A stretch of 64,000 bases of DNA from Metridium senile (Eukaryota > Cnidaria > Anthozoa > Actiniaria > Metridiidae), in contig OX459096.1 of the NCBI GenBank assembly GCA_949775045.1, positions 32,163,223-32,227,222 on the forward strand, written 5' to 3'. The position numbers and the translations under genes are program-made. Below the pieces are notes generated by a model. It was not told the origin of the DNA. It worked only from the letters and a program-made list of their open reading frames with translations, and made no database searches. How positions within the stretch are numbered: position 1 is the stretch's first letter; every line of letters starts with the position of its first letter. Shown piece by piece: positions 605 through 61,285 of this stretch.

Positions 605-719
605 ATAATTTTTGAAGCAATTGTTGGAGATGATGGCTCTATAGCTGTAGATGATGTCAAGTTGTCTGTAAACCCAAAGTGCTCGTTTCTGCCTTCATTT
701 TCCTGGAATACTCGTCAAG
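605..719 (+). CDS. MAM domain, C-terminal end (exon 1 of the visible chain)
   Basis: The acceptor is ttgcag at 604 and the donor is caag|gtaatg after 719; phase 0 in, phase 1 out. The peptide begins IIFEAIVGDDGSIAVDDVKL and has a Cys (NPKC) soon after, which is the classic end of a MAM domain (hydrophobic-F-E-hydrophobic, then G-x-I-A-hydrophobic-DD-hydrophobic). The remaining MAM exons and the signal peptide must lie upstream of position 1. Confidence 0.75.
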
Positions 720-24400: not shown

Positions 24401-24937
24401 AGAAGAAGAGCAATTGACAAGCCATTTTCCATTACGGACCTTGATCCCTATACCCCATATGGTGTACAGATATTAGCGGTAACTGTTGCTAATGGAGTAC
24501 CAAGTTTACAGTTTAATGTCACCTCAGGAGAAGCTGGTATGCATAGTTCTACCTATTCACTATCTGTATGATTGTTTACCTCCTCACATTCTGTACCCCA
24601 TGTATGCTATTCTCATACGTAACATCTGCTTTATTGTTATATTTACTTCTATCCCCGTTCCACTCCTACTTGACTGGTTGATTGATTAATTGATTGATTA
24701 ACTGACTGGTTGATTGATTGACTGACTGACTGACTGACTGGTTGATTGATTGATTGATTGACTGGTTGATTGATTGACTGATTGATTGACTGGTTTACAG
24801 AATGACTGGTTGATTAATGGGTTGATTGATTGACTGACTGGTTAATTGATTGACTGATTGACTGACTGACTGACTGGTTGATTGACGGACTGACTGGTTG
24901 ATTGACTGGTTTGATAGTTGATTAATTGAATGAATGG

Positions 24938-24978
<41 letters not shown>

Positions 24979-27900
24979 CAATTGATTGACTATAATCTCA
25001 ATGATTAGCTCCTAGCTTCTACCCGCTAAATCTCCTCGTCTACAACACAAGTTCTACGTCTCTGATGGTAAGCTGGGACGAAGTACCAGACAAACATAAA
25101 AACGGCATTATAATCGGCTACACTATTAAGTACAAGAACGAATATGAGAAAGACTTTCAGCGCAAGGAAATAGACAATAGCTATCAAATGTCAGAGTTGA
25201 CAGGTCTCGAGAAGTATGAACTGTATGAAGTCTACATATGTGCATCCACAAGTTATGCTGCAGGAAATTTCTCTGAAGCAGTTACTGCAAGGACAGCAGA
25301 GGATGGTAAGAACCCGTATATATATATAGCGGAAATACACTAATTGACTCCAGGTGATTTCATGCGCGCACTTCCGGTTAGTACAAGCCAATCAGAAGCA
25401 TTTCTGTAGCATCGCCAACAGTTCCAAAATGGCGTCGTAATTCGAGAGAGTTTTTTCCCTTTTCCCAACCTTAAAATAACTTAACGATAAAACGTTCTAT
25501 GATACTTGGACAATAAATGTTCACTGCGATAAAAATGAATAAAAACAAAACGCAAATGCCTAAAAGTAACCGAAATTGTTTTTGTCTCGAGGCGCCATTT
25601 TGGAACTATTCGTTTTGACAAACAATCCTTTGCGCGCTTCGAAGCGAGATCACCTGGCTGGGACCACAAAACAAACTGCTTTCCCGAGGTCCCAGTCGAT
25701 AACTGTTTTGTTAATGAACTTTTACATGCAAAAGAAAACAATAACAATGATACAATTAAATGTGATGTATATTATTTTCCTCCATATTTTGTCTTTCTGT
25801 TCAACGATTTTGTAATGAGCGCGCTGCGCTGGGGTTTTCCGGGAAATAACATATTGCTGCTCAGAGCCGTTGCCACGGAAACATCAAACTTTTTCACGTT
25901 CACGTGATACCTTCTCGCCCAATCAGAATACAAGAAATATGAACATTGACAGTTGGTATATAACAATATACTATATTGTGGAATATAGCGCATAAACTTT
26001 ATCAATAAAATATAATGAAATTGTTACTGTGGAATAGAGCGCAAATGTTATATCCATGAAATAAAATCAAATTGCTACTGTGGAATAGAGCGCAAATGCT
26101 ATATACATGAAATAAAATGAAATTGCTACTGTGGAATAGAGCTCAAATACTATATCCATGAAATAAAATCAAATTGCTACTGTGGAATAGAGCGCAAATG
26201 CTATATACATGAAATCAAATCAAATTGCTACTGTGGAATAGATCGAGCTCAAATGCTTCATCCATGAAATCAGTAAAATCAAATTGCTACTGTAGAATAG
26301 AGTGCAAATGCTATATCCATGAAATAAAATAAAATTCCTACTGTGGAATAGAGCGCAAATGCTATATCCATGAAATAAAATAAAATTGCTACTGTGGAAT
26401 AGAGCGCAAATGCTATATACATGAAATCAAATCAAATTGCTACTGTGGAATAGATCGAGCTCAAATGCTTCATCCATGAAATCAGTAAAATCAAATTGCT
26501 ACTGTGGAATAGAGCGCAAATGCTATATCCATGAAACATGACCATTAAAAAATTCAAAACAGATTATTTTATATAAGGGGGATAATGTTACTAACAGAGT
26601 GGTAAGAACAATTATTGAAGTTTAGTCAAAGTAAAATAGTTGTAGTAAATCACTATGGTTATATAAATTTGTCTCCACTATTTTAGTTCCAGATAGTTAT
26701 CCTGTGAATATAACAACTACATCTACTCTGACCACCTTCACTGTCAAATTTGATACGATGGCGAAGAGACAACAAAACGGTATTATACTTGGATATATAG
26801 TGGATGCCTATACAATGGAAGATTTACACGAATCCAGCACAACAGTATATGATAAAACTACTGCTGTTATAACTGGTCTTGAAATATGGACAAACTATAC
26901 TGTACAAATACAAGCCTTTACTAGTGTTGGAAATGGACCACGGAGTCCTAAACAACGGTTTGACACTGATGAACAAGGTATATTGCCCTTGCCCTTGCCC
27001 TTGCCCTTGCCCTTGCCCTTGCCCTTGCCCTTGCCCTTGCCCTTGCCCTTGCCCTTGCCCTTGCCCTTGCCCTTGCCCTTGTTCTTGCCCTTGTTCTTGT
27101 TCTCTCATCTTCTTGTTCTCTTATCTTCTTGTTCTCTTATCTTCTTGTTCTCTCATCTTCTTGTTCTCTCATCTTCTTGTTCTCTCATCTTCTTGTTCTC
27201 TCATCTTCTTGTTCTCCCATCTCCTTGTTCTCTCATCTTCTTGTTCTCTCATCTTCTTGATCTCTCATTTTCATTTTCTTGTTTTTCATTTCTTCTTACT
27301 CTTTTCTAGCTAACTATACTTGTGAGCATTAGTTGTACCACCATGACAAACAGTAATACCACATTGTCGATACAACATTGGCGCAAAAAAAATCAACATC
27401 GACGATAACACTATATGACACTACATTACACTACACTACACTACACTACACTACACTACACTACACTACACTACACTACACTACACTACACTACACTACA
27501 CTACACTACACTACACTACATTACACTGAGTAAAATAGTAGTAATGTATTGTACTGTTCACTGCACTATAGAGTGATATTCCTTCGTCTGTGAAAGAATA
27601 ATCAACGTAATACATAGTAGTACACACCACTCCAATTGTTATATTTTGTTTTATTTCGACTATTACTCACTAACTAGTCTACTTTGTTGCACGGACGAAG
27701 GAAAATCACCCTACCACACCACACTACACTTCACTACACCACTACACTAAGCTACATACACTACATACACTACATATATATACTAGTTTACTCGCTAGTT
27801 TCCATTTACATACACTACAGTAAATTCAATAGTATTGATCATTAAATAATACCGTAAAGTAATATCATGAGTTTTCTAATATAATTTTTACTTTTGTCTC

Positions 27901-30900
27901 AGCTCCTCAAGACACTCCTCAAAACGTCGCAGCGCATTTCACCAGCTCAACATCTATACGAGTAGAATGGAGTCCAATCGACCCTTCATTAACCAGGGGA
28001 ATTGCACGAGGTTATAACGTTTATTATCGCGCTTTAAATACTCCATTCCCGAAACCATTATTGGTATCTAAAGTGGGCGTGGACTCTAGTCACGTGCTTT
28101 TGTCTAAACTTCACAAGTACGTAGAGTACGATATTTACATCACAGCTGTTACAAACAAAGACGGTAACGCTAGCCAAGTGGTGAGAACATCCACGGATCA
28201 AGACAGTAAGTATCAACCGGTTACCTGTGGATCAACTCATCCAATTGAATCGAGTCGAATCGAGTCGAATTGAGCTCATTTCAATTGCATCGAATTGAAT
28301 TGGCTAGTATTTGGATCGAGTTCGAATAGACCCATTCAGCTTCAATGTTTATTTACCCACTTCAAACCACGTGTGCATTCCCTTTGGATTTAATCATTTG
28401 TTATGCATAAATATGTTCATACTTGACATAAAAGAACAACTCTCTAGGGAATGTCATGTGGTCTGAAATGTGCAATTTGCATACAGAACTAAAAGGGTCT
28501 ATTGAATTAATTTCAATCGAATCGAATTGAATTGACTTGGATTGAATCAAGCTGACTTGAGTCGGATGGAGTTGAATTGTCTTGGATCGAGTCGAATTGC
28601 GTTGACTTGGAGTTGGTCTAATCGAGTTTACTTGAATCGAATTGAATTGACTTAGATCGAGTCGAATTGAGTTGTGTCGAGTTGAATTAATTGACTTAGA
28701 TCTAATTTAGTTGACTTTTATCGAATCTAATCGAATTGAATTGACTTAGATCGAGTCGAACTGAGTTGTGTCGAATTTAATTAATTGTCTTGGATCGAAT
28801 TTAGTTGACTTGGATAGAATCTAATTGAATCGAATTGAATTGACTTAGATCGAGTCGAATTGAGTTGTGTCGAATTGAATTAATTGACTTGGATCGAATC
28901 TAATTGAATCGAATTAGATAGGAATCGAATTTCATCCACCTGAAGCGAATCAGGCGTATTTATATGAGTCGAATACGATTGTACTGAGTATTTTGAATAA
29001 TAGAAGGTATGATAAACAGACGTTTCGATCCATGGACCTTTCGATCCAACTTTGGAACTTTTCCAGCCACATTGAATAATATGAATATATATATGTTCTA
29101 TTATAGAACCAGACAAGCCTCCATCAAAAATGAAATATCTCCTACCAAGCCCAACTAGCATCTGGTTAGGCTGGCATGAAGTACCTGATGGATATAAGAA
29201 TGGTGTTATCATGGGATATAGAATAACATTGAAAGATACGCGCAATGAAGATCCACCAACTACCATTACCTATAGTCCTAATGTATTCTCGGCGAATTTG
29301 GATGGGCTGCCTAGTTTTGTGGATTTCAAAATCACTCTTCTTGCTTTTACTATTAAAGGGGATGGGCCAGGGTTGACACACATAATCACAACAGACGAGA
29401 GTGGTAAGTTGTTGTTGTTGCTGTTTAATACCATACTCGAGTTTCGTGCTCTTCCCAGGTTAAGCCTTGATAGCACGTGGTTTCTTATTTTATATGGACC
29501 CACAGTAATTGGCCATGCTGTTTTGGGCTCCTGTCTTCGGACGAAATAAAAAAATATATTTACAGAACAACTCGTGGTAAAACAAGGACAAACATTAAAA
29601 AACAATAGAAATATCCCGTGTTTTAACCCTACTCTTTGTCTAATATAATCGACTACCCACTAAGCAATCGGAGAACTCGAAATTTGTCTATTGTATGTTA
29701 TTAATAACAATATACACTTAATGACTGGTCCCGAGGGAAACGGTTAGTTTTGTTTCCCGAGAATCTCAATGTTTCCCGAGGTCCGCCGAGGGAAACATTG
29801 AGATTCGAGGGAAACAAAAACTAACCGTTTCCCGAGGAAAACAGTCATTAAGTATTTTGTTATATTGGTAAATTATGTGAATAAAAAAACAAGCATCAAA
29901 ACACATTGAAGATGATTTCCAATAATACTTTATTGTAAATATAATATTGACCGTCGACAAAATAGCAAGGTGTTAAGCGTTTAAATTACATTGTGCTTGA
30001 AAATGAAAATAATATAAATATACAAATGCCGAAAAACTAGCAAAACTTTATGAATGAAACAGTCAATGAGTTCCTGAATAGAAATGTAACGTGACATTTG
30101 CACCGGAGAAAGATCCTGCGTGAAAGTGAACAGTTTCTTGACTTTGTTGTGACGCGAAACTCTGCATCATGTTTACGGGTGAGCTTGGAGTGTTACGGCT
30201 TGAATATTCTTCAATTTGGTTGCTTGTAGAAGCAGCAGAACTCAAGGTATTAGAGATTTCTCTTTGTTTGTCTTCGGTAAGGCTTCTTGAATATGAACGA
30301 ATACTGAGAATCCCGCCTTTACACAACTTTCACTCAACGCGAGCCGCCCTTTTCCCGCCAAGCGGTCAACAATCGCCAAACTGTTGACCAATCAGTCAAC
30401 AGTTGATTTTAGCTCCGGACACGTGACACCGAATCGTCCAATAAGAGAGCGAGAAAGCAGTGAAAATAATTTACCAATATAACAATATACACTTAATGAC
30501 TGGTCCCGAGGGAAACAGTTAGTTTTGTTTCCCGTGAATCTCAATGTTTCCCGAGGCTCCGGCCGAGGGAAACATTGAGATTCGAGGGAAACAAAACTAA
30601 CTGGTTTCCCGAGGGATCAGTCATTAAGCGTTTTGTTATATAGCTAATCATTTTAGACAAGTAAATTAAGTAAATTTGAATTTTTATTCAATGCGCTGGG
30701 CACTTGTATCCCGGTCGGGATACAGTTAGATTTAACTAGTATCACGTGAGCATCTATCAACCAATGAGAATGCTCGTTATATAGTCAAAATGATTAGCTA
30801 TATAACAATTGAGCTTAGCCTAGCCTATTAATGTGATGTTATTTCAATGTAATGTGATCGAATGTAATGTAACGTCATGTAGTATGATGTGATGTGGTGA

Positions 30901-33900
30901 AATGTGATGTGAGGAGATGTAGTATGATGTGATGTGATGTGTTGGAATGTAATGCAATGTGATGTGTTGGAATGTGATTTGAGGAGACCTAATTCCCAAA
31001 ACTCAAATCTATTATATCTGTTCCTCACTTTCAATAGTGCCAGAGCTTAATCCTCAAAATCTACGAGCCGAAAACCATACTTCTATCGATACCCTCCCAA
31101 TTGCATGGAAAGAAATCCCCCGTGGTGGGTTACCGGGCATTTTACTTGGATACCGGCTATTGTATACACCGGTATCTACCGGAGATGTTGAGATAGAGGA
31201 AGGTGAGACTAAAGAGATCTTTATTCCCCCTGATCAAACAAGTGTTGTATTAAAGAATCTGGAGATCTTTACCAAATATCAGGTATCAATATCTGGACAC
31301 ACTACCAAGGGAGATGGGCCTTTTACTATTACATTTGGAGGTTAGTTTAATCCTTAGAAGAACATAAACTATATCCATATATATACACCTACTTGCAAGA
31401 ACGTTGTCATTAACATTTGAACATTTGTAATTTAGTGGATTAGGAATAAATTAAAAGTACAAAAGAAAGAGTTCTGCTTCAATGATCTTCTTATCTTCTT
31501 TTGTACTTTTAATTTATTCCTAATCCACTAAATTACAAATGTTCAAATGTTGTATGACAACGTTCTTGCAAGTAGGTGTATAAGGTTATTTCTATCTACT
31601 TTACACCATAAGTACATAACAACTTTGATAAAAATGTTGGTTAAAAAAAACTCTTGTATACTTTGGATTACAGTAAACACCCGCAAGTAAGAACCTGCAA
31701 ATTAAGAACCTGTTAGCCTCAAATTTGTCATTTCTATATTATTATATTTAGCATGTCATTTAGCATTGACCTAAATTCTTACCCATTCGTATATATTTAT
31801 TTTTTTATTTACATACAGGTCAATGCATTTGCACATGACTATTTTTCTACATAAAAACATTGTTTTAAATCTTGTTATTTGAATCCACTTTATTGTTTCT
31901 ATTTCTATTCTAATTAATAACGATTTTGTTCTACTTTTTAAAATAAAGATTAACGCAAGCATGGTACGGTGTGGTATTTCTATTCTATTTTTTATTCGTC
32001 CGATCCCCAGGAAGTCATTGACTAGGCATCCCTCCTGTCCACTCACACGTTTCGCTATATGTTGTGTTGACACGTTCAACACTCAGATAAAATATCGCTT
32101 TTTGATAAAAGGGAGGAAGGCCTAAGTGACAATGGATTGAATACATCAGGCAGAATGGCTATTGTTTGATGGACATGGCTACTTAACTCAATTAACACCT
32201 TTAGTTCGAGAAGGAAATTTCTGCATGAACGATCAAGTGATATGATTGGTTCGTACATGTCACTCTAGGGAATAAACCTGACGTCATTCATTGCCACATC
32301 AAATAAACTCATATGTGATCAATTACGAGACCGTACTCCAGCGTGGAACACAGCGGTCAGAGGCTAGAGGCATAACGCTGGACCGTGCATGCCACCCCTT
32401 CAATGAAAACGAACCAATAGTCCCCTTCACAGTTCCCTGCGCCTTGTTGAATGGTAGCCGGGCCTTTGCATTGAAGCGAGATGAACGTTGAGCTTGCAAT
32501 GATAGAGGCAAGTGAATAATTGTTTCGTAAGGTGTTATTATCTTTCATTGCAAGCTCGACGTTCGTCTCTCTTCGATGTACTGAAGGGGACTATTCTATC
32601 TAACTTGACTACCAAAATATTTTAGTCAACGTGTTTTGAACTAGTTTTAAATCTCATTTCAGAGACATGCAAATGCAAGAAGCGTTTATCATCCAGTTGG
32701 ATGGAGCTTCCTCCATACGTGAACATTACTAGCGGCAATGTTATGGGCATAATGCCTTCAGTCGTTCAAGACATGATAGTATCTTGCTGTCAACATTGCA
32801 AAGCCCATGGATTGTCAGTCCTTGATCTAAGCCTCGATGGCTATAACAAACCTGCTCGTAAATACTCCAAGTCGGAACTGAGTATTATGATCGATGGCAT
32901 GACTGATATTATCTTTCCTATCCCTGGCGCTGTTTCACAAAAAAACTATAAAACAACTTACGGTTTTCAAAAACTGGTCGAGACACCTGGCGTAGCGTTT
33001 CTCATCTCATCACGGTCGTCTGAAGGCATCCTGGCAATGCAGATAATTGTATCGATATGGCAAAGTTGGCCTTTATTTCTGATCTCTTTTCTTTTGGCAT
33101 TTGTTGTTGGATGCTTTGTTTGGGCTTTTGTAAGTATATTTGAAACAATTGTAATTGTTAATTTATTGCTTAAATGTCGTAAAGCGTGGTGTGTTTGATT
33201 TACAAATAGATCCGATTAATATTTGTCATTAAACTTTAGGAATGTAGTGGCAACTACAACGAGTTTCCCCAGTCATACATCAGAGGCTCTTGGGAAGGGT
33301 TTTGGTTTACCTTTGTCTCAATGACCACTGTGGGGTAAGGCTAGTGTAGTGTAGTGTAGTGTAGTGTAGTGTAGTGTAGTGTAGTGTAGTGTAGTGTAGT
33401 GTAGTGTAGTGTAGTGTAGTGTAGTGTAGTTATGTGGTGTGGTGTAATGTGTTGTGGTGTGGTACGTGTGGTGTGTACTAGTGTAATGGTGTGATGTAGT
33501 AGTGTAATGTGGTGTGTTGTACTAGTGTAATGTGGTGTGGTGTAGTAGTGTAATGTGGTGTGGTGTGGTACGTGTGGTGTGTACTAGTGTAATGGTGTGA
33601 TGTAGTAGTGTAATGTGGTGTGTTGTACTAGTGTAATGTAGTATGGTGTAGTAGTGTAATGTGGTGTGTACTAGTGTAATGGTGTGATGTAGTAGTGTAA
33701 TGTGGTGTGTTGTACTAGTGTAATGTGGTGTGGTGTAGTAGTGTAATGTGTTGTGGTGTGGTACGTGTGGTGTGTACTAGTGTAATGGTGTGATGTAGTA
33801 GTGTAATGTGGTGTGTTACGTGTGGTGTGGTGTACTAGTGTATCAATATCAATAACGATATGTAGTGTATCAATATCTAACGGTACGCCTTATTGTTCAT

Positions 33901-36650
33901 TAGCTATGGCGATAGATGTCCGTCTTCTGTACCTGCTCGAATCCTGGCTATGTTTTGGACACTTTTTGGTATTGTTCTGGTTGGTATGATTATAGGAAAC
34001 ATTGCTGTTGCCATGACAACTGTTGCCGTGACACAATCGACTAATTTATATGGCATGAAGGTACATATGATTTCAGTGACTATTATTCCTGGTGATGTGC
34101 TAAACTGAGGAAGAGTTCCAGTTTTAGTATTTCACCATGTGGTGTTCCAAAGTTTTTGATAGGGAACCTCTCCGACAATGACTTTATAAGCTCGCGACAT
34201 TATTGTTAGGAAAAAACAGAGATCGTGATACATATGTTCGTCTTAATGTGACTTCAACAAAATCTGAATCCGTCTCAAATTCACAGCAAACGACAGGTCC
34301 GTCATAAGATGATTTGTCCGTCTGTTTGTGTAGCACGTCTAATAATAACTAAAACTAACCAACTTTGTTTTGATTGCACTTCTATTGTTCATAGGTTGGC
34401 GCCATAAAGAGCTCGTTTGCATATCGCTTTGGTATTCGAAGGAATGCAAAAATGAATACAGGTACAGTCAAAAACTCAAAGTTATAATATACCTATTTCT
34501 GAAAAGGTTTTATTTGAATTGCTTTTGCATATAGCTAATTCAATTAACTTTGTCGCTGATTTATAATGCCTAAAGCCTAATCGTCAGACCGAAAGGGATC
34601 GTGGGATCTTTTATCGAGGCGAATGAGGCGTGCAAAGCGTGTAAAACATTCAACGTGTATTTGCAAGTGTTCCTCAGTGGAAACAAAAACACAAATTACG
34701 GTTTAGGAATCTTGAAAACTCATGCAATTTTAAAATCCCATGACCACTTTCGCTCTCAAGATTAGGCTTTTTTCTTGTTTCAGCGACGAAGTTAATTGAA
34801 TTAGCTATATATTAAAATGCTTAAACATATGACAAACATTTGTTGTACAGATTTCCTTCGGCGTACTGAAGTGTAGTTTTAATGGTGTAATTTGCTTGTT
34901 TTACAGAGCGTGAGTATGAAACATACGACCAAATCTACGAAGACATCGAAAAAGGGCTGATACAGGGTGCTTTACTCGACTCTTTTGCCATGGGAAGCAG
35001 GAAAAAGCTCTTTGACAAGCCATTTATTCGCATCAAGAAAATCTACGATGTTAGTTTTGTACATGGTATTGTATCTGCAGGTAATGCTTCTCTCATAAAC
35101 AGATGTCTTGGACGATATACAAGAAGTAAAGCCGTACAGATATCAGAAACTATTAAAGACAATGTTAAAGCTGTAGAGGTTTGTGCATTTTGACTGACTT
35201 TTTCATTTCTGTTCAGTGCTGAAATTCTTGATTGTTAATTATTTAAAATTGGATTAACTTATATCATATTTTCATATGCATATTCAATTATATAATATTT
35301 TGTATGTTTGTTCGTTTGTTTGTCCATTTCTTAATTTGATCGTTTGTTTATTTGTGTTTACTTGTATGTTTGTTATTTGTTTGTTTGTTTGCTTGTTCGT
35401 TTGCATGTTTTGTTTATTTTGTTTGTTTGTTTGCTTGTTCGTTTGCATTTTTTGCTTATTTGTTTGCATGTTTGTTTGTTTGTTTGTTTGTTTGTTTGCT
35501 TGCTTGTTCGTTTGCATGTTTTGCTTGTTTTTTTTTTGTATGTTTGTTAGTGATCACCATGTATTTGTCTCCTTTGCCGTTCCCTAGACAATGATGACGA
35601 AGGTGGCCTTCTGAAGCTTACAAAGCTCATACAAAAGTTCTCTAGACCATAATGATATTTGTTTCTGTTTAAGGTGGTAAATACGCCATTAGCAAGCGAG
35701 ATGTCGTCTGGTGTTTTTGATGCGGGTAGTACTGTGTTTTTAGACTTCGTAAAGATGACAAGTGGAGCGCTTGTATTCTTGATTGTACTGGGATTAATAT
35801 GGCATGTAATCTACTCCATCAAGAAGACTCGTCCCCTCACTCTAGGTAGGACTCAGCACATATAATTAAAATGAACCCCCTCCCTCTGGAACAGCACTAT
35901 CCACATGGGTTAAGCCACAGACAGGATAACTGTATCTGATCTGAGGCCGGTAGTACAAAGCTGGGCTCAATAGCCCGGGAGGGGTGGGGACTCACTTTAA
36001 ATTTGTCCAAGTGGTAGGGGTGATCGGCGGTCGGCTTTAAAAATGACATTATGACAATTTATCTGATTGACAGGCCATAGCTGCCAGTCTTCTTCATAGT
36101 TCCCTACGCCATCTTGAAAGGTAGCCGGGCCTTTGCATTGAAGCGAGACGAACGTTGAGCGTTGGACACCTTGCGGGACAATTATTGACGTGTCTATCAT
36201 TGCAAGCTCAACGTTCGTCTCGCTTGGATGCAAAGGCCAGGCTACCTTTTAAGATGGCGTAGGAAACTGTTAAGGGGACTATTAGTTGTTTAAGCTATTA
36301 CAAGAAGCTGTGCCCAGTAAATATTTTATTTTTGTAAACTGCAATGACAAGTTCAACTATAGTTCCTTTATTTTATAGCCGAAACAAGACGAAGAGAAAT
36401 GAAGAGAAGGATTGACCTATTTTACAAGCGTTTCTCTAAGCTTGCAACAACCTTAAAAGAAAAGCACAAGCAACAAAGACTGCAGTTTCTAAAGCTAAGC
36501 CAGGACAGAAACAGGACAGAAACAAGTGGGAAACAGAAGAGCAACAAGAAGAATAAACGCAAAAAGACTTGGTTCTCTTTCGATAACAATGAAACTGTTG
36601 TTAAATACATATACGACAGCGACGAATCTACACCAAATGACCTCACCTGA
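605..36650 (+). CDS. Giant multidomain receptor with a potassium-filter glutamate-receptor-like channel at its C-terminus (5' partial)
   Basis: Thirty exons chain with consistent phases: 605-719, 1698-1934, 5907-6314, 7113-7376, 8470-8580, 9747-9947, 10201-10899, 11326-11441, 12501-12553, 14074-14207, 15409-15717, 16392-16688, 19327-19674, 20369-20662, 21836-21968, 23119-23276, 23751-23919, 24382-24536, 25009-25305, 26687-26977, 27903-28205, 29107-29403, 31038-31340, 32663-33129, 33240-33334, 33904-34060, 34395-34461, 34907-35178, 35674-35845, 36379-36650. They sum to 7194 bases, a multiple of three, and end in TGA. All acceptors are AG and all donors GT, and the ectodomain is mostly phase 1-1 exons, as in shuffled extracellular modules. 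The predicted product is a plasma-membrane protein with an adhesive or lectin-like ectodomain and a ligand-gated potassium-channel-like core. The start codon and signal peptide lie upstream of the window. Function is inferred from domains only; one transcript across all exons has not been shown. Confidence 0.8.
1083..1261. repeat. Inverted-repeat element with AATAGAC / GTCTATT ends
   Basis: The left arm (tttacct ... cccatttcag at 1114) is mirrored by the right arm (ctgaaatggg to 1230, then aggtaaag and tctatt). A second copy lies at 28325-28503. Non-autonomous DNA element inside an intron. Confidence 0.65.
1698..1934 (+). CDS. TLDc domain, N-terminal half
   Basis: Phase 1-1 exon of 79 codons, acceptor cataG|GT and donor AATG|GTGAGT. 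The peptide contains FHALKDGWNAEALLSNCSNK and then GPLVFLVRKGSHVFGGFTD. This matches the animal TLDc pattern of an aromatic-rich 'CYxASxDGW' segment followed by 'CxxKGPTVTLVxxxxxxFGGFTD'. The C-terminal half of the fold is in the exon at 7113, not in the next exon. Confidence 0.8.
2131..2895. mobile_element. Cluster of three adjoining hairpin MITEs
   Basis: Three long palindromes abut: 2131-2389 (arms with ctgcaataacgttgtccacc), 2388-2661 (arms with tccaaaaaacgttgtctggt) and 2652-2895 (arms with tacttgcaataaggttgtca). The second and third share the palindromic junction aggtgtatatatacacct. The ends of the second and third conform to the TATATACACCTA family described in the findings. Confidence 0.8.
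2989..3424 (-). pseudogene. LINE (CR1/L2/RTE-like) reverse transcriptase C-terminus, fragment
   Basis: An open frame of 143 codons with LQRVQNVAARMIAGARRTDH, then HWLPIEARINFKI and LWNSLPENIKK. This is the region after the RT domain in common animal LINE ORF2 proteins. No catalytic motif is included, so it is a dead fragment in an intron of the large gene, opposite in strand. Confidence 0.8.
3586..3690. mobile_element. Pogo/Tigger-like MITE, copy 1
   Basis: A 105-bp element bounded by TA on both sides, starting CAGTGGAGCCCCGCC and ending GGGGTTCAACTG. The interior contains taatacggccacc repeats. CAGTnnAACCCC-type ends with TA target sites are typical of pogo/Tigger relatives. Confidence 0.75.
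4676..4855. mobile_element. Pogo/Tigger-like MITE, copy 2
   Basis: Same family as 3586-3690, starting CAGTGGAACCCCGCC and ending GGGGTTCCACTG with TA flanks; 180 bp, longer than copy 1. Confidence 0.8.
5630..5852. mobile_element. Hairpin MITE with TAGGCCCGTT ends
   Basis: The left arm (taggcccgtt, then tttgtcgcgtgacaagag) is mirrored by the right arm (ctcttgtcgcgcgacaaaat, then aaacgggcctta). It ends about 55 bp before the acceptor of the F5/8C exon. Confidence 0.7.
5907..6314 (+). CDS. F5/8 type C (discoidin/fucolectin-like) lectin domain
   Basis: A single phase 1-1 exon of 136 codons, acceptor gtcag|GT and donor TATG|GTAGGT. Visible hallmarks are SNAVDGDLSTFSSTNDWEDN (the NAVDG motif that follows the first strand), RWWRV, the 'hydrophobic-x-V-x-I' strand, and a C-terminal SIRIAEIKVYG strand. 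Cysteines resemble fucolectin-type galactose-binding folds. It lies between the two halves of the TLDc domain. Confidence 0.8.
6387..6447. repeat. (TCAA)n microsatellite
   Basis: About a dozen TCAA units with minor interruptions, just downstream of the F5/8C exon. Confidence 0.9.
7113..7376 (+). CDS. TLDc domain, C-terminal half
   Basis: Phase 1-1 exon of 88 codons, acceptor caacag and donor GGAG|GTAAGA. The peptide starts YQAVPSTKAFLFKLNQ, which matches the 'xxSxxAFLFSL' strand that follows FGGFTD in TLDc. It goes on with VIFGKGDLSINI (the 'FGxGxDLxI' motif) and ends QPDDIEVLTLGG (the 'x-DEIEVFxL' end). If the F5/8C exon is skipped, this joins 1698-1934 in frame to give a continuous TLDc fold. 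Confidence 0.8.
7475..7779. mobile_element. TATATACACCTA-family hairpin MITE (GTTGTCGCAGCC type), copy 1
   Basis: The left arm (tgtatacacctagttcaata, then cgttgtcgcagccgaagc) is mirrored by the right arm (gctttgtttgcgacaac..., gaaatagatgtata). Copies of the same interior lie at 13708 and 14313. Confidence 0.8.
7789..8055. mobile_element. TA-flanked hairpin MITE, CACTGCAAAACGG ends, copy 1
   Basis: Starts CACTGCAAAACGGCTGAGTA and ends with its complement (tcagccgttttgcagtg), flanked by TA on both sides. The inner arms share tcaggatgacactttatagt. A second copy is at 9380-9658. Confidence 0.85.
8470..8580 (+). CDS. Small Cys-containing linker exon
   Basis: Phase 1-1 exon of 37 codons (acceptor cgcttag, donor CGAG|GTAAGA) containing LPCLEGEIFDKIVKQCKCDF and a later EIC. 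Four cysteines are visible. I do not recognise a domain; it may be a small disulfide knot or part of one with the next exon. The exon call rests on phase agreement and splice sites. Confidence 0.5.
8743..8916. mobile_element. Pogo/Tigger-like MITE, copy 3
   Basis: Starts CAGTGGAACCCCGTTCATCC and ends GGGGTTTAATGCACTG. The interior shares tggccgtattaacggggtgg with copies 1 and 2, in reverse orientation. Confidence 0.75.
8989..9206. mobile_element. Hairpin MITE with AAAAGGCCCGGGCAAACGG ends
   Basis: Near-complete palindrome: cggtttcaacatttgcttca and caacatccgttcgattttgt on the left recur inverted at 9125-9200. It resembles the element at 13417-13605 at its ends. Confidence 0.8.
9380..9658. mobile_element. 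TA-flanked hairpin MITE, CACTGCAAAAACGG ends, copy 2
   Basis: Same family as 7789-8055: TA, CACTGCAAAAACGGCTGAGT at the left and its complement, then TA, at the right. It ends about 90 bp before the acceptor of the exon at 9747. Confidence 0.85.
9747..9947 (+). CDS. Exon of unrecognised extracellular domain
   Basis: Phase 1-1 exon of 67 codons (acceptor cttccag, donor CGAA|GTATGT). The peptide includes RFKVSMTHYARYNEKNGVWT, a single CFSDES segment and SFFVNNTSLIRIRSRS. The pattern suggests a short beta-rich module (K-V-S-hydrophobic-x-H-Y-A-R). I cannot assign a family. Confidence 0.55.
10201..10899 (+). CDS. LamG-like / concanavalin-A-like lectin domain
   Basis: A single large phase 1-1 exon of 233 codons (acceptor tattcag, donor AAAG|GTAACA). 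It begins LLYWPMDD and has GVLNGALSFNGEGNIVRLP, CVSMWIKF, IWFHLIFRYR and a final ASFDEIIVFKVLNA. This is the LamG/pentraxin-like order: W-P-hydrophobic-D start, G-x-A-L-x-F-x-G strand, 'S-x-W-hydrophobic' strand, and 'DEIxVF' end. A carbohydrate- or protein-binding role is inferred from the fold. Confidence 0.8.
11326..11441 (+). CDS. SEA domain, part 1
   Basis: Phase 1 in, phase 0 out (acceptor attacag, donor CAATG|GTATGT). The peptide LYINTSIETKIGWNSDLENK continues with a short acidic helix. SEA domains begin with such a strand followed by a helix. It chains in frame with the small exon at 12501. The donor lies just before an AAAC-rich microsatellite of about 0.9 kb. Confidence 0.55.
11487..12372. 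repeat. AAAC/AAC/GACA-rich microsatellite, about 0.9 kb
   Basis: Irregular iteration of aaacaaacaac and aaacagacc words fills the intron between SEA exons 1 and 2. It keeps reading frames open on the minus strand, giving Cys/Leu/Val-rich pseudo-proteins that are not genes. Confidence 0.95.
12501..12553 (+). CDS. SEA domain, part 2 (micro-exon)
   Basis: A 53-base exon (acceptor atcctag, donor TTCAG|GTATTA), phase 0 in and phase 2 out, encoding IRSADVANTTKSIEIKF. The phases match the exons on either side, and the alternating hydrophobic strand at its end suits a SEA fold. Confidence 0.5.
12844..13112. mobile_element. TATATACACCTA-family hairpin MITE (GTTGTCCATCTG type), copy 1
   Basis: The left arm (tatacacctatttcaattaa, then cgttgtccatctg and gatctgagaccgacaggaat) is mirrored at 13050-13112 (cctatcggtctcagatcaac, then ttaattgaaataggtgtat). 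Sister copies lie at 45946-46212 and 37998-38541. Confidence 0.85.
13417..13605. mobile_element. Hairpin MITE with AGGCCCG ends and TAA flanks
   Basis: Left TAA, then aggcccggacaaacgcacgc and aacattgttgg; right ccaacaatgttgcgtgcgtt, then tgcacgggcct and TAA. The 3-bp TAA flanks suggest a PIF/Harbinger-like mover. Confidence 0.8.
13708..14000. mobile_element. TATATACACCTA-family hairpin MITE (GTTGTCGCAGCC type), copy 2
   Basis: Arms: tcattgtcgcagccgaagct at the left; ttctttgcaggtttcagagt and gaaatagatgtatata at the right. The left end is worn (tatatactatag). Confidence 0.75.
14074..14207 (+). CDS. SEA domain, part 3
   Basis: Acceptor atcctag and donor GATG|GTAACT, chosen because it is the donor in this frame that gives the phase 1 needed by the next FN3 exon; reading past it meets a stop at 14261. 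The peptide contains NGNGIALCDISIRFHGEGFV, where SEA domains have 'G-x-hydrophobic-hydrophobic-V-x-Y-x-hydrophobic-x-F', followed by a helix. No canonical GSVVV autoproteolysis site is present. Confidence 0.6.
14313..14615. mobile_element. TATATACACCTA-family hairpin MITE (GTTGTCGCAGCC type), copy 3
   Basis: Left tatatacacctatttcaata, then atcgttgtc; right cttcggctgcgacaacattt, then tttgaaataggtgtatat. It lies about 105 bp downstream of the last SEA exon. Confidence 0.85.
14904..15095. mobile_element. AATAGTC...GACTATT hairpin MITE, copy 1
   Basis: Left: cacagttccctgcgccatct, then taaaaggtaac. Right: aagatggcgcagggaactgt, then gggactatt. The interior arms share cttgcaatgatagag. Other copies: 22551, 32416, 36075 and a fragment near 6457. 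Confidence 0.8.
15409..15717 (+). CDS. Fibronectin type III domain 1
   Basis: Phase 1-1 exon of 103 codons (acceptor gtttcag, donor GCAG|GTGAGT). The B-strand Trp is in LNIEWTSK, the C strand is FRRYTVKYVN, and the F-strand signature is TNYNLSVRADTHEGDG. First of eleven FN3 units. Confidence 0.8.
15770..15955. repeat. Dispersed repeat, inverted partner of 22855-23105
   Basis: Contains tatgcctattgttctgatgc, aacctgttaaaaaaag, accatatatggttatgg and caagattgcatacggtattt. Each recurs in reverse complement in the FN3-5 intron at 22855-23105. Confidence 0.75.
16083..16290. repeat. (GAAT)n-like tetranucleotide tract
   Basis: Degenerate gaatgaatgaat / gaataaat iteration in the intron before FN3-2. 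Confidence 0.9.
16392..16688 (+). CDS. Fibronectin type III domain 2
   Basis: Phase 1-1 exon of 99 codons (acceptor ctacag, donor GATG|GTAAGT). FN3 hallmarks: VSWSAIPAEYLRGPISYLI and LQKYSEYSISICG, ending with the linker WTDEDG that recurs in several units of this gene. Confidence 0.9.
17093..17510. repeat. 69-bp minisatellite, six copies
   Basis: The word atggtttattgtcagcatag starts at 17093, 17162, 17231, 17300, 17369 and 17438, exactly 69 bp apart. Because 69 is a multiple of three, long repetitive open frames appear on both strands; they are artefacts of the repeat. Confidence 0.97.
17511..17814. repeat. 57-bp minisatellite, left block (about five copies)
   Basis: The word tatgtttgggtgatcggagg recurs every 57 bp (atg at 17535, 17592, 17649, 17706, 17763). 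The block continues at 18862 after a LINE insertion. Confidence 0.95.
17815..18861 (+). pseudogene. 5'-truncated LINE (CR1/jockey-like) RT C-terminus and 3' tail, inserted in the minisatellite
   Basis: The frame at 17811-18302 has NVAKCKVLNMSKKG, DLGVKVTSDLTWTKHI, KANRSLGLIKRI and LVRPQLKYASSVWSP, the conserved RT tail of jockey/CR1-type ORF2. After a stop at 18302, broken frames still show VKLWNSLPGHF near 18450. The 3' end is AT-rich and finishes in a short ctaaa-type iteration (aataaactaaactaa), followed at once by the next minisatellite unit. Catalytic domains are absent, so it is immobile. Confidence 0.85.
18862..19247. repeat. 57-bp minisatellite, right block, ending with an inverted partial unit
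   Basis: About six units of the same 57-bp repeat (tatgtttgggtgatcggagg-like words) with more divergence than the left block. The last piece (about 19206-19247) is an inverted copy (cgatcacccaaacatacttt). Confidence 0.9.
19327..19674 (+). CDS. Fibronectin type III domain 3
   Basis: Phase 1-1 exon of 116 codons, longer than its sister units because of an extended C'-E loop (about 20 extra residues before the ITGLKLF segment). Trp is in IILWSEIPKEM and the F strand is TSYEFRLACGTSKGLG. It follows the minisatellite and LINE tract. Confidence 0.85.
19944..20150. repeat. Low-complexity AAT/AAAAT/AAC tract
   Basis: Consecutive (aat)n, (aaaat)n and (caa)n runs in the intron before FN3-4. Confidence 0.85.
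20369..20662 (+). CDS. Fibronectin type III domain 4
   Basis: Phase 1-1 exon of 98 codons (acceptor ttctcag, donor GATA|GTAAGT). FIQWSPVPPEYLYGKLQGY, then LNGLKKYEKYSIKMAAFTA and the linker FTDEDS. Several N-x-S/T sequons are visible. Confidence 0.9.
20690..21140. repeat. Foldback-rich intronic tract
   Basis: Several inverted pairs: aactagagggtttcttg with agaaaccctctag, ccaatcagaag with cttctgattgg, and aaaccggttt repeated. Element borders are unclear. Confidence 0.4.
21421..21545. repeat. Dispersed repeat, inverted partner of 38551-38707
   Basis: tagacgcacttagtg, ggtttacctgtagcattacg and agacccatagatagaaaagg recur in reverse complement at 38551-38707, outside the gene. Confidence 0.8.
21836..21968 (+). 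CDS. Fibronectin type III domain 5, N-terminal part
   Basis: Exon with phase 1 in and phase 2 out (acceptor ctatag, donor ACAG|GTTAGT) encoding VPESGPENLTTVGVQSNGLV and the GNVLGYVITLYDR C strand. The usual B-strand Trp is Leu here (LVLSLKPP). It joins the exon at 23119. Confidence 0.8.
22236..22440. mobile_element. TATATACACCTA-family hairpin MITE (CTTGCAA type), degraded copy
   Basis: Left: tgcacctatacctagttgca, then agaaagttgtc. Right: gacaacgttcttgcaataag, then gtgca. The interior arms (attaaagacaaaagaagatc) match the copies at 2652 and 37208. Confidence 0.75.
22551..22745. mobile_element. AATAGTC hairpin MITE, copy 2
   Basis: Starts aatagcccccttaaaagctc; the arms share atcttgaaaggtagctggcc and cttgcaatgatagag with the other copies. 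The right end is worn. Confidence 0.75.
22855..23105. repeat. Dispersed repeat interrupted by a Harbinger-like end fragment
   Basis: Inverted counterpart of 15770-15955. It is interrupted at about 22938-23038 by ggcctcggctacacgaatcc and following bases, the left part of the element seen complete at 37427-37612. Confidence 0.7.
23119..23276 (+). CDS. Fibronectin type III domain 5, C-terminal part
   Basis: Exon with phase 2 in and phase 1 out (acceptor ttttcag, donor GCAG|GTAAGA). It supplies the second half: DSMKPYTDYTVSVSAFNAKG, then QGKPTNITIKTQEAG. Confidence 0.85.
23751..23919 (+). CDS. Fibronectin type III domain 6, N-terminal part
   Basis: Exon with phase 1 in and phase 2 out (acceptor accaatag, donor TACG|GTAAGC). 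APSAPPSKVVATSLPGASIT, then VSWDPVDIFYVNGIVRSYVI. It splits after the C' strand at the same place as domain 5, suggesting the two split units arose by duplication. Confidence 0.85.
24382..24536 (+). CDS. Fibronectin type III domain 6, C-terminal part, with a polyarginine run
   Basis: Exon with phase 2 in and phase 1 out (acceptor atttcag, donor GCTG|GTATGC). The peptide starts VQASRRRRRAIDKPFSITDL and continues DPYTPYGVQILAVTVANG. Five consecutive Arg codons (24395-24409) lie in the loop before the E strand. Confidence 0.85.
24675..24988. repeat. (TTGA)/(CTGA) tetranucleotide tract
   Basis: About 300 bp of ttgattgactgactgg-type iteration ending about 20 bp before the FN3-7 acceptor. Confidence 0.95.
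25009..25305 (+). CDS. Fibronectin type III domain 7
   Basis: Phase 1-1 exon of 99 codons (acceptor gattag, donor GATG|GTAAGA). MVSWDEVPDKHKNGIIIGY, then LEKYELYEVYICASTSYAAG and the linker AEDG. The acceptor lies directly after a TTGA/CTGA tetranucleotide tract. Confidence 0.9.
25975..26537. repeat. 51-bp tandem repeat, about eleven copies
   Basis: The word tgctactgtggaatagagcg recurs about every 51 bp (tggaatagag at 26030, 26081, 26132 and so on). Some units carry a small insertion (gatcgagctc), giving a higher-order pattern. Confidence 0.9.
26687..26977 (+). CDS. Fibronectin type III domain 8
   Basis: Phase 1-1 exon of 97 codons (acceptor ttttag, donor CAAG|GTATAT). The F strand is LEIWTNYTVQIQAFTSVGNG. 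The B-strand Trp is missing (FTVKFDTM). The donor is followed within a few bases by a (CCCTTG)n array. Confidence 0.85.
26982..27290. repeat. (CCCTTG)n array followed by an 18-bp CT-rich array
   Basis: Sixteen or so cccttg units to about 27080, then about eleven units of ctcatcttcttgttctct. It starts five bases inside the intron after FN3-8. Confidence 0.95.
27409..27525. repeat. (ACACT)n pentanucleotide tract
   Basis: More than 20 units of cactacactacacta. Confidence 0.95.
27903..28205 (+). CDS. Fibronectin type III domain 9
   Basis: Phase 1-1 exon of 101 codons (acceptor gtctcag, donor GACA|GTAAGT). IRVEWSPIDPSLTRGIARGY, then LHKYVEYDIYITAVTNKDGN and the linker TDQDS. Confidence 0.9.
28325..28503. 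repeat. Second copy of the AATAGAC inverted-repeat element
   Basis: Starts aatagacccattcag; contains caaaccacgtgtgcattccc and aatgtcatgtggtctgaaat as inverted arms; ends aaaagggtctatt. Matches 1083-1261. Confidence 0.65.
28504..28925. repeat. Degenerate GAATTGACTTGGATCGA repeat
   Basis: Iterated gaattgaattgacttagatc / gagtcgaattgagttg words; the tract starts about 28240 and resumes after the element at 28325-28503. Confidence 0.85.
29107..29403 (+). CDS. Fibronectin type III domain 10
   Basis: Phase 1-1 exon of 99 codons (acceptor attatag, donor AGTG|GTAAGT). LGWHEVPDGYKNGVIMGY, then LPSFVDFKITLLAFTIKGDG and the linker TTDESG. Confidence 0.9.
29707..30643. mobile_element. Composite: two palindromic units flanking a segment with a minus-strand open frame
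   Basis: Hairpins 29707-29867 and 30481-30643 share aacaatatacacttaatgac, tggtcccgagggaaac and an inverted second arm. The inner segment starts ttatattggtaaatta and ends taatttaccaatataa, an inverted pair. On the minus strand it holds an open frame to 30063 with a conserved-looking end and a CAATAAAG signal near 29930. Confidence 0.7.
30829..30985. repeat. ATGTGATG-type short tandem tract
   Basis: Degenerate repetition of atgtgatgtgatgtag-like words in the intron before FN3-11. Confidence 0.85.
31038..31340 (+). CDS. Fibronectin type III domain 11
   Basis: Phase 1-1 exon of 101 codons (acceptor caatag, donor GGAG|GTTAGT). IAWKEIPRGGLPGILLGYRL, then LEIFTKYQVSISGHTTKGDG. It is the last adhesive module; the next exon opens the channel core. 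Confidence 0.9.
31377..31582. mobile_element. TATATACACCTA-family hairpin MITE (CTTGCAA type), near-intact copy
   Basis: Left: tatatacacctacttgcaag, then aacgttgtca. Right: tgacaacgttcttgcaagta, then ggtgtata. Arms with ttagtggattaggaataaat are almost perfectly mirrored, so the whole element folds as one hairpin. Confidence 0.9.
32416..32595. mobile_element. AATAGTC hairpin MITE, copy 3
   Basis: Starts aatagtccccttcacagttc and ends aaggggactatt; contains cttgcaatgatagag. It ends about 65 bp before the channel-core acceptor. Confidence 0.8.
32663..33129 (+). CDS. Channel core: S1-like ligand-binding lobe and first transmembrane helix (M1)
   Basis: Phase 1 in, phase 0 out. After a short TCKCKKR stretch the peptide has ELPPYVN, GNVMGIMPSVVQDMIVSC, MIDGMTDIIFPIPG and LVETPGVAFLISS. 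These match in order the iGluR S1 landmarks 'PPFV', 'GxCxDLLxxIA', 'LxxGxADIAVxPL' and 'PYxxxGLxxLV'. No Arg occurs where iGluRs place the glutamate-carboxylate Arg; the stretch reads AVSQKNYK. M1 is WPLFLISFLLAFVVGCFVWA (33067 to about 33126). There is no separate amino-terminal domain as in animal AMPA or NMDA receptors; FN3 domain 11 precedes directly. Confidence 0.8.
33240..33334 (+). CDS. Channel core: pore helix and first half of the potassium filter
   Basis: Exon with phase 0 in and phase 2 out (acceptor ctttag, donor GG|GTAAGG). It encodes ECSGNYNEFPQSYIRGSWEG followed by FWFTFVSMTTVG. The 'FPxxYxxGxxxGFWFxFVxMTTVG' pattern is that of bacterial GluR0-type and two-TM potassium channels. 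The intron cuts the first Gly codon of GYG. Confidence 0.85.
33336..33845. repeat. (TAGTG)n and derived GTGTAATGTGGTG array in the filter intron
   Basis: About 20 perfect gtagt units, then degenerate longer units (gtactagtgtaatggtgtga). It fills the intron that splits the GYG filter codon. Confidence 0.95.
33904..34060 (+). CDS. Channel core: second half of the potassium filter and M3 helix
   Basis: Exon with phase 2 in and phase 0 out (acceptor cattag, donor AAG|GTACAT). It completes the filter as TTVGYGDRCP and continues with a hydrophobic helix, ILAMFWTLFGIVLVGMIIGN, then IAVAMTTVAV (about 33940-34030). The GNIAVAMTT segment lies where iGluR M3 has SYTANLAAFLT. The exon ends at the start of S2 (NLYGMK). 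Confidence 0.85.
34395..34461 (+). CDS. Channel core: start of S2 lobe
   Basis: A 67-base exon (acceptor cатag-type AG at 34393-34394, donor ACAG|GTACAG) encoding VGAIKSSFAYRFGIRRNAKM. With the preceding GMK it matches the iGluR S2 opening 'KVGxxxGSxAxxxF' where S2 binds the ligand. Confidence 0.75.
34529..34810. mobile_element. Hairpin-ended MITE, ATATAGCTAATTCAATTAAC ends
   Basis: Left atatagctaattcaattaac, then tttgtcgctga; right tcagcgacgaagttaattga, then attagctatat. Lies between two S2 exons. Confidence 0.85.
34907..35178 (+). CDS. Channel core: S2 ligand-binding lobe
   Basis: Exon with phase 1 in and phase 0 out (acceptor tttacag, donor GAG|GTTTGT). YDQIYEDIEKGLIQGALLDS matches the S2 pattern 'xxexxxxxlxxGxxdaxxxDs', keeping the acidic residue of the S2 lobe. 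It continues RIKKIYDVSFVHGIVSAGN, where iGluRs read 'xxxxxxxxGxxxxKgS', and a helix (SLINRCLGRY...). Confidence 0.75.
35298..35545. repeat. (TTTG)n tract
   Basis: Irregular gtttgtttgtttgcttgttc words in the intron before the M4 exon. Confidence 0.9.
35674..35845 (+). CDS. Channel core: end of S2 and M4 helix
   Basis: Exon with phase 0 in and phase 1 out (acceptor tttaag, donor TAG|GTAGGA). After SGVFDAGSTVFLDFVKMTSG comes a clear membrane helix ALVFLIVLGLIWHVIYSI (about 35767-35820), the M4 seen in eukaryotic iGluRs and absent from bacterial GluR0. It is followed by basic KKTR, as expected on the cytoplasmic side. Confidence 0.8.
36075..36283. mobile_element. AATAGTC hairpin MITE, copy 4
   Basis: Arms: gccatcttgaaaggtagccg with ggctaccttttaagatggcg, and cgagacgaacgttgagc with gctcaacgttcgtctcgc. 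Ends aaggggactatt, about 95 bp before the terminal exon. Confidence 0.8.
36379..36650 (+). CDS. Cytoplasmic tail and stop of the receptor-channel
   Basis: Terminal exon (acceptor tttatag, phase 1) of about 90 residues ending in TGA at 36648-36650. The tail is very basic and helical (ETRRREMKRRIDLFYKRF), has a lysine cluster KQKSNKKNKRKK, and ends acidic (YIYDSDESTPNDLT). No known domain. Confidence 0.75.
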
Positions 36651-36796
36651 ACTTCTGGTCTTTCTCCTCGTCCTTTTTCAACCAACTTATAATCAATTGA
36701 TTGATTTGTTATGATGGAGTATTCACGTTAATTCTGCTTTAACAGTGAACACGAAATCAGATGGAATCGTTCACCGTGTTGCGTTGATTTCAGTTC

Positions 36797-41455: not shown

Positions 41456-41773
41456 ATGGCATCTACAGTAGAGGAAACGCTTAAACGTATCGAGGCCAGC
41501 CCTAGTGTTATTGGTATAATCGTGGTTGATGACCATGGTAAAATCATGCGCACGACAATGGACCGTCAAACTGCACTTCAGTACGCCAAAGACTTCTGTC
41601 ACCTGTCCGAGTTTGCTTATCACGTGGTACGTGACCTTGACCCTCAGAATCGCCTTCAAGTTCTAAGAGTTAAAACGCATGATCACGAAGTATTGGTCGC
41701 TCCGGACAAAGGCTATACGTTGTTGGTTGTACAAGCTAACACATCAACACACGATTCACCGGGTTACGCTTAG
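41456..41773 (+). CDS. DYNLRB: Dynein light chain roadblock-type
   Basis: Intronless CDS of 105 residues. The start chosen is the ATG in ACCATGG (a strong initiation context), eight codons into a longer open frame. The protein reads ASTVEETLKRIEASPSVIGI, VVDDHGKIMRTTMD, YAKDFCHLSEFAYHVVRDLD and LRVKTHDHEVLVAPDKGYTL, which is the roadblock/LC7 fold through to the end. It links cytoplasmic dynein intermediate chains to cargo. The family is usually about 96 residues; the excess is a polar C-terminal tail after the conserved VVQ. AATAAA occurs at 42083. It could be a retrocopy, because many animal paralogues contain introns. Confidence 0.95.
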   Translation: MASTVEETLKRIEASPSVIGIIVVDDHGKIMRTTMDRQTALQYAKDFCHLSEFAYHVVRDLDPQNRLQVLRVKTHDHEVLVAPDKGYTLLVVQANTSTHDSPGYA

Positions 41774-50805: not shown

Positions 50806-51312
50806 TGAGGAAAGTCAGCTTGTCAGATATACTATATATCCACCAATTTGTAATCTCATAATCGCTCGATTTTCAAAAAATTGCCAGAAATCTCTAAGCG
50901 AGAAGTTAATAAAACTAATCTTGACATATTATGATTCATTACTTTGTCCTTTTCGGTTCAACAGTCTTTCGACAAGCCACTTATTACACAGACGAATATT
51001 TATGGTTTTGTAAATAAATAAATGCTGGCTGACATCATCAACCAGGCGTTACTGTCTCTCTTGGCCGCGAGGGACTAAAACTAGACTCAGTCTGACTCAG
51101 TCTACTATGAGTATAACGAGAGAAGACCGGGAACTACTTTTTGACCAATCAGAAACGAGGAAACAAATTCAAATCGAAGTGGTCAAACGATCGAACGATT
51201 GATCAAACGCGCGAACACATGAGAATTTACAAATTTTATCGCTGATATTTACAGATTTGTATCATTTACACGCTTAGTCTGATCAAGAAAAGGTGTTTTT
51301 ACATATATCAAC
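50806..51312. promoter_or_regulatory. Shared intergenic promoter region of FKRP and NUSAP1
   Basis: Only 507 bp separate the two start codons, which face away from each other. No TATA box or CpG-dense core is obvious by eye. Co-regulation is an inference from spacing. Confidence 0.45.
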
Positions 51313-61234: not shown

Positions 61235-61285
61235 GTAAGTATATAGATCTATCAATCACACAAAACAAAATAGCTTTTCTCTGGT

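Follow-up and report, generated by a model that had tools for sequence, protein, structure and literature searches.

We found that a giant modular gene of Metridium senile probably encodes an iGluR-like channel with a K+ filter, in which an ectodomain would precede a shortened and derived S1/S2 module, a GluR0-type M1-pore-M3 and an M4. The gene lies in the window (the whole 64,000-nucleotide stretch of DNA that we analyzed), and among the database rows that we saw it belongs to a large family found in cnidarians.

The channel core consists of seven exons on the + strand (32663-36653) that splice in phase to give an open frame of 500 residues without a stop (Table 1). AG/GT dinucleotides are found at the borders of all seven exons, and a stop codon closes the last. 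The initial annotation had read these exons as an S1-M1-pore-M3-S2-M4 series with an intact TTVGYGD filter, and the splice borders, exon phases, hydrophobicity and relatives all bear this reading out. The filter itself is split, with TTVG running up to 33334 and YGD beginning at 33905, and a 569-base intron interrupts the first Gly codon. Hydrophobicity marks four segments in the core, namely two that overlap at M1 and one each at M3 and M4; the tail after M4 is basic. A further 19 exons upstream (8470-31340) are in phase with the core, bringing the model to 26 exons and 2,056 residues. The gene start originally placed at 32663 is thus too late, as the gene reaches at least to 8470, and the seven exons are no stand-alone gene; they form the 3' end of a giant modular receptor, with 26 exons in phase and relatives aligned along them. 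The gene very probably extends as far upstream as 1698, and perhaps to 605 or outside the window; the possible exon at 605-719 resembles the end of a MAM domain. Pfam recognizes fn3 in the upstream exons with an E-value of 1.3e-98, reporting nine stretches above threshold against the 11 FN3 units delimited by exon structure. With seven family proteins as queries, no second copy of the core was found in the window above 40-45 bits.

Table 1. Exons and related features of the giant receptor gene, in window coordinates
Feature	Coordinates	Strand	Basis
Possible upstream exon	605..719	+	Phase alone; no MAM domain found in the exon by Pfam
Probable upstream exon, TLDc domain fragment	1698..1934	+	Phase; TLD E 6.6e-09; P0002 tblastn match 1691-1915
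Probable upstream exon, galactose-binding (F5/8-type C-like)	5907..6314	+	Phase; F5_F8_type_C_2 E 2.9e-07
Probable upstream exon, phase 1-1	7113..7376	+	P0002 tblastn match at 7112-7372
Two exons without Pfam domain (8470-8580, 9747-9947)	8470..9947	+	Phase; aligned to P0001 and P0002
Exon, laminin-G-like domain	10201..10899	+	Laminin_G_3 E 4.4e-07; tblastn, alignment
Three exons without Pfam domain (11326-11441, 12501-12553, 14074-14207)	11326..14207	+	Phase; low-identity alignment
Thirteen exons, 11 FN3 units	15409..31340	+	In-phase joins; aligned to P0001 and P0002
Exon, S1 lobe and M1 of channel core	32663..33129	+	AG/GT; phase 1 in, 0 out
Exon, pore helix and TTVG half of filter	33240..33334	+	AG/GT, alignment to relatives
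Intron between filter halves, mostly GTGTA-type tandem repeats	33335..33903	+	Tandem repeat at 33342-33842
Exon, YGD half of filter, M3 and S2 start	33904..34060	+	AG/GT, tblastn, alignment
Exon, S2	34395..34461	+	AG/GT, alignment
Exon, S2 including conserved acidic residue (GALLDS)	34907..35178	+	AG/GT, tblastn, alignment
Exon, S2 linker end and M4	35674..35845	+	Hydrophobicity; aligned to P0002
Final exon, cytoplasmic tail and stop	36379..36653	+	AG/GT, alignment

Support for the full-length model comes from two anthozoan proteins. In a three-way alignment, Nematostella vectensis LOC5510390 (P0002) covers every one of the 26 modelled exons. An incomplete Actinia tenebrosa protein, annotated as "sidekick-2-like, partial" (P0001), covers 24 of them, although one of these is matched over only 9 of its 55 residues. 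P0001 has no match to the last two exons because it stops before M4. The exon order obtained by tblastn of the relatives on the window agrees wherever matches exist. Because the core is 58% identical to the annotated Actinia protein and 44% identical to the annotated Nematostella protein, it is not a chance product. We also considered whether the FN3 part and the core are two separate genes, which is ruled out by P0001 and P0002 each spanning both.

In single-sequence searches, the window core resembles a K+ channel. The best Pfam match is Ion_trans_2 (45 bits), with Lig_chan at 26.8 bits, under its cut-off of 30.8, and the best PDB chains are TOK1 and KCND2, with NMDA NR1 lower (E 7.1e-05). 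Lig_chan was matched in 13 of 14 aligned members (E up to 0.1). In the family core, a pore loop with M1 and M3 flanks lies between two lobes, in the order S1-M1-pore-M3-S2, and in the comparison with GluR0 described below 288 columns align in order across S1, pore and S2. When an S2-only profile of 11 members was compared with all PDB chains, 34 sequences had E-values of 10 or below. The 19 top-ranked of them are either bacterial GluR-type binding domains or substrate-binding proteins, most of which bind amino acids. These 19 include AncQR (E 3.1e-04), Slr1257 (E 4.7e-03), which we take to be Synechocystis GluR0, and an "ionotropic glutamate receptor bacterial homologue" (E 0.046); no eukaryotic iGluR is among the 34. 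We also searched a control set of four GluR0-like proteins and 87 other search matches, mostly K+ channels, 4 of which carry a precomputed Lig_chan label. Here the S2 profile gave E-values of 7.5e-09, 1.5e-05, 0.013 and 8.1 for the GluR0-like four, thus missing one of them, and 0.64 for the best of the 87 others. The S1 profile alone is not significant in this set (E 0.52-1.5, with some K+ channels scoring equally) and matched no PDB chain, and Pfam on S2 alone found no Lig_chan or binding-protein family in any of the 11 members. Judged by its profile matches, S2 resembles a lobe with the fold of substrate-binding proteins.

To compare the family with its bacterial counterparts, we used the best 80 of 438 confirmed bacterial GluR0 candidates, fetched from GTDB genomes; all 80 have a TTVGYGD filter, although the genome scan and the choice of open reading frames both leaned on the pore. 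In profile-profile comparisons, whose E-values apply to single pairs, S1 matched GluR0 S1 at 88.8% with 82 family rows and at 71.8% with a separately made 21-row alignment, and S2 matched GluR0 S2 at 96.9% with 82 rows and at 94.6% with an 11-row alignment. The pore matched the GluR0 pore at 100%, as did the whole core over its 288 columns. The alignment behind the 82-row profiles had held three bacterial rows, which were removed first but may help these scores a little. Mismatched pairs reached 0.2-1.3%, with the exception of S2 against GluR0 S1 (34.2%, or 52.7% with the 11-row alignment), a cross-match between lobes. Against the single bacterial protein P0046, S1 reached just 0.2%.

The likeness is strongest in the pore and holds outside the filter. 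With the filter masked, the family pore profile scored the 80 GluR0s at a median of 64.0 bits (49.5-76.9), compared with 25.0 for GluA2, 22.8 for GluN1 and a median of 19.0 for the 87 K+-channel-like decoys, among which P0049 reaches 64.3 and the next 46.8. In the reverse test, the masked GluR0 pore profile scored the 148 cnidarian sequences, window included, at a median of 60.8 (31.7-79.0); the window itself scored 48.5 versus 42.8 for GluA2 and 34.0 for GluN1, a smaller gap than in the forward test. These filter and pore profiles support the proposal of the initial annotation that an animal genome encodes an iGluR-type core in which a GluR0-like pore carries a strict K+ filter. The binding lobes behave differently: the GluR0 S2 profile scored GluN1 at 37.3 and GluA2 at 20.6, whereas the window reached 5.7 and the family a median of 2.1, and the whole-core GluR0 profile, again with the filter masked, scored GluN1 (97.2) and GluA2 (86.7) above the family median (84.3) and the window (69.4). 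These scores indicate a pore that has changed fairly little and a binding core that is strongly derived, and a plain statement of descent is unwarranted.

An M4 is present by topology: a segment of 38-55 residues could be cut at the M4 place from 81 of 82 family rows, and it is hydrophobic in the three proteins checked (window, P0016 and P0002). In 23 rows a G is invariant and an F and an E are nearly so. By eye, the family M4 resembles that of iGluRs, but an M4 profile matched five PDB chains, none of them an iGluR, so that the eukaryotic M4 of the initial annotation is at most a candidate assignment.

The core is no single oddity and belongs with the 147 relatives that we inspected. This family set comprises P0001-P0014, P0016-P0044 and P0136-P0239, with the weaker P0015 and P0045-P0135 left out, and was drawn from the matches listed in three protein searches (the best 120 of 298 in one and the best 120 of 131 in another). 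A K+-type filter is found in all 147 of these listed proteins, as TTVGYGD in 145, STVGYGD in one and TTVGFGD in one; members with an altered filter may be missed because the search requires shared five-letter words, some of which probably derive from the filter. The organisms named among the listed rows are Nematostella, Actinia, Actinostola, Oculina, Pocillopora, Stylophora, Porites, Montipora, Acropora, Xenia, Dendronephthya, Paramuricea, Hydra, Hydractinia, Clytia and Rhopilema, 16 genera that are all cnidarian. Ten Nematostella rows contain at least eight distinct pore sequences. Three of the 147 proteins are shorter than 350 aa, 106 have 350-599, 24 have 600-999 and 14 are longer. Among 14 long relatives from the first search, 11 have fn3 (PF00041) and the other 3 have EGF-type domains instead, and other members among the matches listed have ectodomains with CUB (PF00431) and Ig domains. 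Family members are easily overlooked because their public labels are Kv subfamily, cubilin, sidekick-2-like, NMDA receptor subunit 1-like or uncharacterised. The NMDA label, for instance, is attached to P0225 of the jellyfish Rhopilema despite its K+ filter.

In a 68-row tree (short search, SH-aLRT support only, midpoint root), 42 cnidarian rows stand apart, with support of 100, from 24 bacterial rows together with GluA2 and GluN1. The window groups with P0001 and P0002 (support 99). Ten of the 12 giant rows form one set with six CUB/Ig rows (94), and the remaining two giants, which are of the EGF type, fall with P0177, an EGF member, and with P0236, a short one (93). Because GluA2 and GluN1 are its two eukaryotic iGluRs, its root is a midpoint and AvGluR1 is left out, the tree is silent on whether the family reflects early-eukaryote retention or bacterial transfer.

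We then considered what the binding module might recognize. The absence of the canonical carboxylate-binding Arg from S1, noted in the initial annotation, holds in the window, where no Arg occurs between the conserved Pro and 16 residues on (PIPGAVSQKNYKTTYGF), but it does not hold as a family-wide rule, since the Arg is mostly and not always absent. At the GluR0-arginine column, 77 of 82 short and medium members have no Arg (one of these is a gap), and nine have an Arg within four columns. We made a second count by distance from the conserved Pro because the region is gappy and the Arg falls exactly at that column in only one of three bacterial rows; by this measure, 3 of 82 members have an Arg at the GluR0 offset, and 12 of 82 have one no more than two residues away from it. 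P0009, one of the 14 long relatives, has an Arg at the GluR0 offset, and several others have one nearby. The S2 acidic column, which we take to correspond to GluA2 E705 and GluN1 D732, is acidic in 81 of 82 members (79 D, 2 E and 1 N) and is D in the window; S1 contains cysteines that are invariant or nearly so. Since the window and most relatives have no carboxylate-binding Arg while the acidic residue of S2 is kept, the natural stimulus is probably not glutamate. Possible candidates are an amine without an alpha-carboxylate, or no small ligand whatever.

Based on these observations, and by analogy with GluR0 and AvGluR1, we propose a working model of the channel. Its ectodomain (TLDc, F5/8C, laminin-G and 11 FN3) would face outward and join a two-lobed S1/S2 module, shortened and derived from an amino-acid-binding fold; outward lobes, a tetrameric pore and opening at M3 are the most likely arrangement on that analogy. 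Four subunits would assemble around a K+-selective pore. M3 would open when the S1/S2 clamshell closes, or when pull or binding at the ectodomain is relayed through the clamshell, and the resulting K+ efflux would hyperpolarize and quiet the cell. It is conceivable, though we advance it as a tentative and rather doubtful extension, that the family is an unrecognised cnidarian class of inhibitory receptors, K+-selective and iGluR-like with a GluR0-type pore, in which the site for amino acids was dismantled and some branches came to use exchangeable adhesive ectodomains as the sensor. If this were true, contact with matrix, cells or prey would directly hyperpolarize the cell through FN3/laminin-G/TLDc/F5-8C, CUB/Ig or EGF ectodomains.

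Other readings assign these parts different roles. One, which we regard as possible but somewhat unlikely, is that S1/S2 is a vestigial coupler and the K+ pore is gated by the ectodomain, in response to matrix, a neighbouring cell, a prey surface or mechanical tension. The long, branch-specific ectodomains of the window and its relatives (FN3/laminin-G, CUB/Ig and EGF), the short S1 and the missing Arg of the window would fit such gating, whereas the 106 members of 350-599 aa argue against it, as the ones that were aligned retain S1, S2 and the acidic residue although they have no added ectodomain. Retention of the acidic residue in S2, the GluR0 order of lobes and pore, and the members with an Arg at or near the GluR0 offset in a gappy alignment would suit a K+ channel gated by glutamate or another amino acid and working like GluR0 and AvGluR1. 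We consider this improbable, given the Arg-free stretch of the window and an S2 far more derived than that of GluN1 or GluA2. A silent or regulatory subunit, functional only when co-assembled with other members, seems to us comparably improbable: at least eight distinct Nematostella sequences coexist, and the T-A that is nearly invariant in the M3 of an 85-row alignment is replaced by G-N or G-S in the window, P0001 and P0002, but the pore helix and filter are intact and conserved.

A simple fusion of adhesion domains to a two-TM or Kv-type K+ pore lacking binding-protein lobes would account for TOK and Kv channels being the best single-sequence PDB matches and for Ion_trans_2 being the best Pfam match. 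A plain two-TM K+ channel without S1/S2, which the initial annotation had named as the counter-case, is contradicted by sequence profiles: the S2 profile matches binding proteins and GluR0 and not channels, S1 and S2 match the GluR0 lobes, and Lig_chan is found in nearly all aligned members. We therefore reject this reading on the S1/S2 profiles as very improbable. A pseudogene or assembly artefact is hardly credible and is likewise rejected, as 26 exons join in phase without a stop and the cores of the anthozoan relatives are 44-58% identical.

The iGluR-like channel with a K+ filter thus shares features with several known systems. Bacterial GluR0-type receptors resemble the family in their S1-M1-pore-M3-S2 order and TTVGYGD filter and provide its best pore match outside the filter. 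However, those compared end after S2, with neither the M4 of the family nor a giant ectodomain, their lobes score as ordinary binding-protein lobes, and all three aligned keep the Arg. GluA2 and GluN1, the animal iGluRs compared, have the same S1-M1-pore-M3-S2-M4 order but no K+ filter. Kv-type and TOK channels share the filter and pore helix, but the S1/S2 profiles find no lobes in the 87 decoys. In Kv and TOK channels, the opposite membrane orientation is expected. AvGluR1, compared by description alone, has in common with the window a K+ filter in an animal iGluR-like protein. We take its layout to include an amino-terminal (ANF) domain; in the part of the window searched, Pfam found fn3, Laminin_G_3, TLD and F5/8C-type domains and no ANF-type domain, and the 5' end of the gene may lie outside the window.

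In the literature that we covered, K+-filter glutamate receptors are described from bacteria and one rotifer. AvGluR1 of the rotifer Adineta vaga is presented as a highly atypical receptor, closer to the bacterial iGluRs and with selectivity for K+ over Na+ (PMC12226733). It is described as an animal iGluR with a K+ filter and a eukaryotic layout, which opens in response to glutamate, alanine and other amino acids (PMC12226733, PMC12332018). Among the matches listed in an open-access library that lacks most subscription journals, we found no account of K+-filter iGluR-like channels in cnidarians, though trees in supplements may already hold such sequences. A paper on taurine and settlement (PMC12225738) has no bearing on the family. 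A large cnidarian family would make the GluR0-type pore widespread in one animal phylum and would add possible fast K+-based inhibition to cnidarian physiology. Its natural series of short, CUB/Ig, EGF and giant FN3 members would also serve the study of how a binding clamshell is re-purposed.

The window contains several other features. Within an intron of the giant gene, a LINE reverse transcriptase-like end was seen by eye at 17836-18430 (+ strand), and a MITE-like inverted-repeat element around GCCGGGCCTTTGCATTGAAGCGAGACGAACGTTGAGC was likewise seen in several introns (14900-15090, 22560-22740, 32400-32600 and 36090-36280). Elsewhere, a frame of the dynein light chain roadblock/LC7 family lies at 41420-41770 on the + strand (E 1.4e-12), and a predicted tRNA-Thr (GGT) at 60852-60925 (+ strand) overlaps the frame 60834-61238. 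On the - strand, a zf-RVT match at 63196-63840 (E 2.1e-10) is probably a piece of a retrotransposon, and a 524-residue frame at 56484-58055 has a PP2C phosphatase domain (E 1.4e-38). A 540-residue single frame at 49195-50814, also on the - strand, combines an FKRP stem domain (E 2.1e-75) with LicD and is a fukutin-related protein gene.
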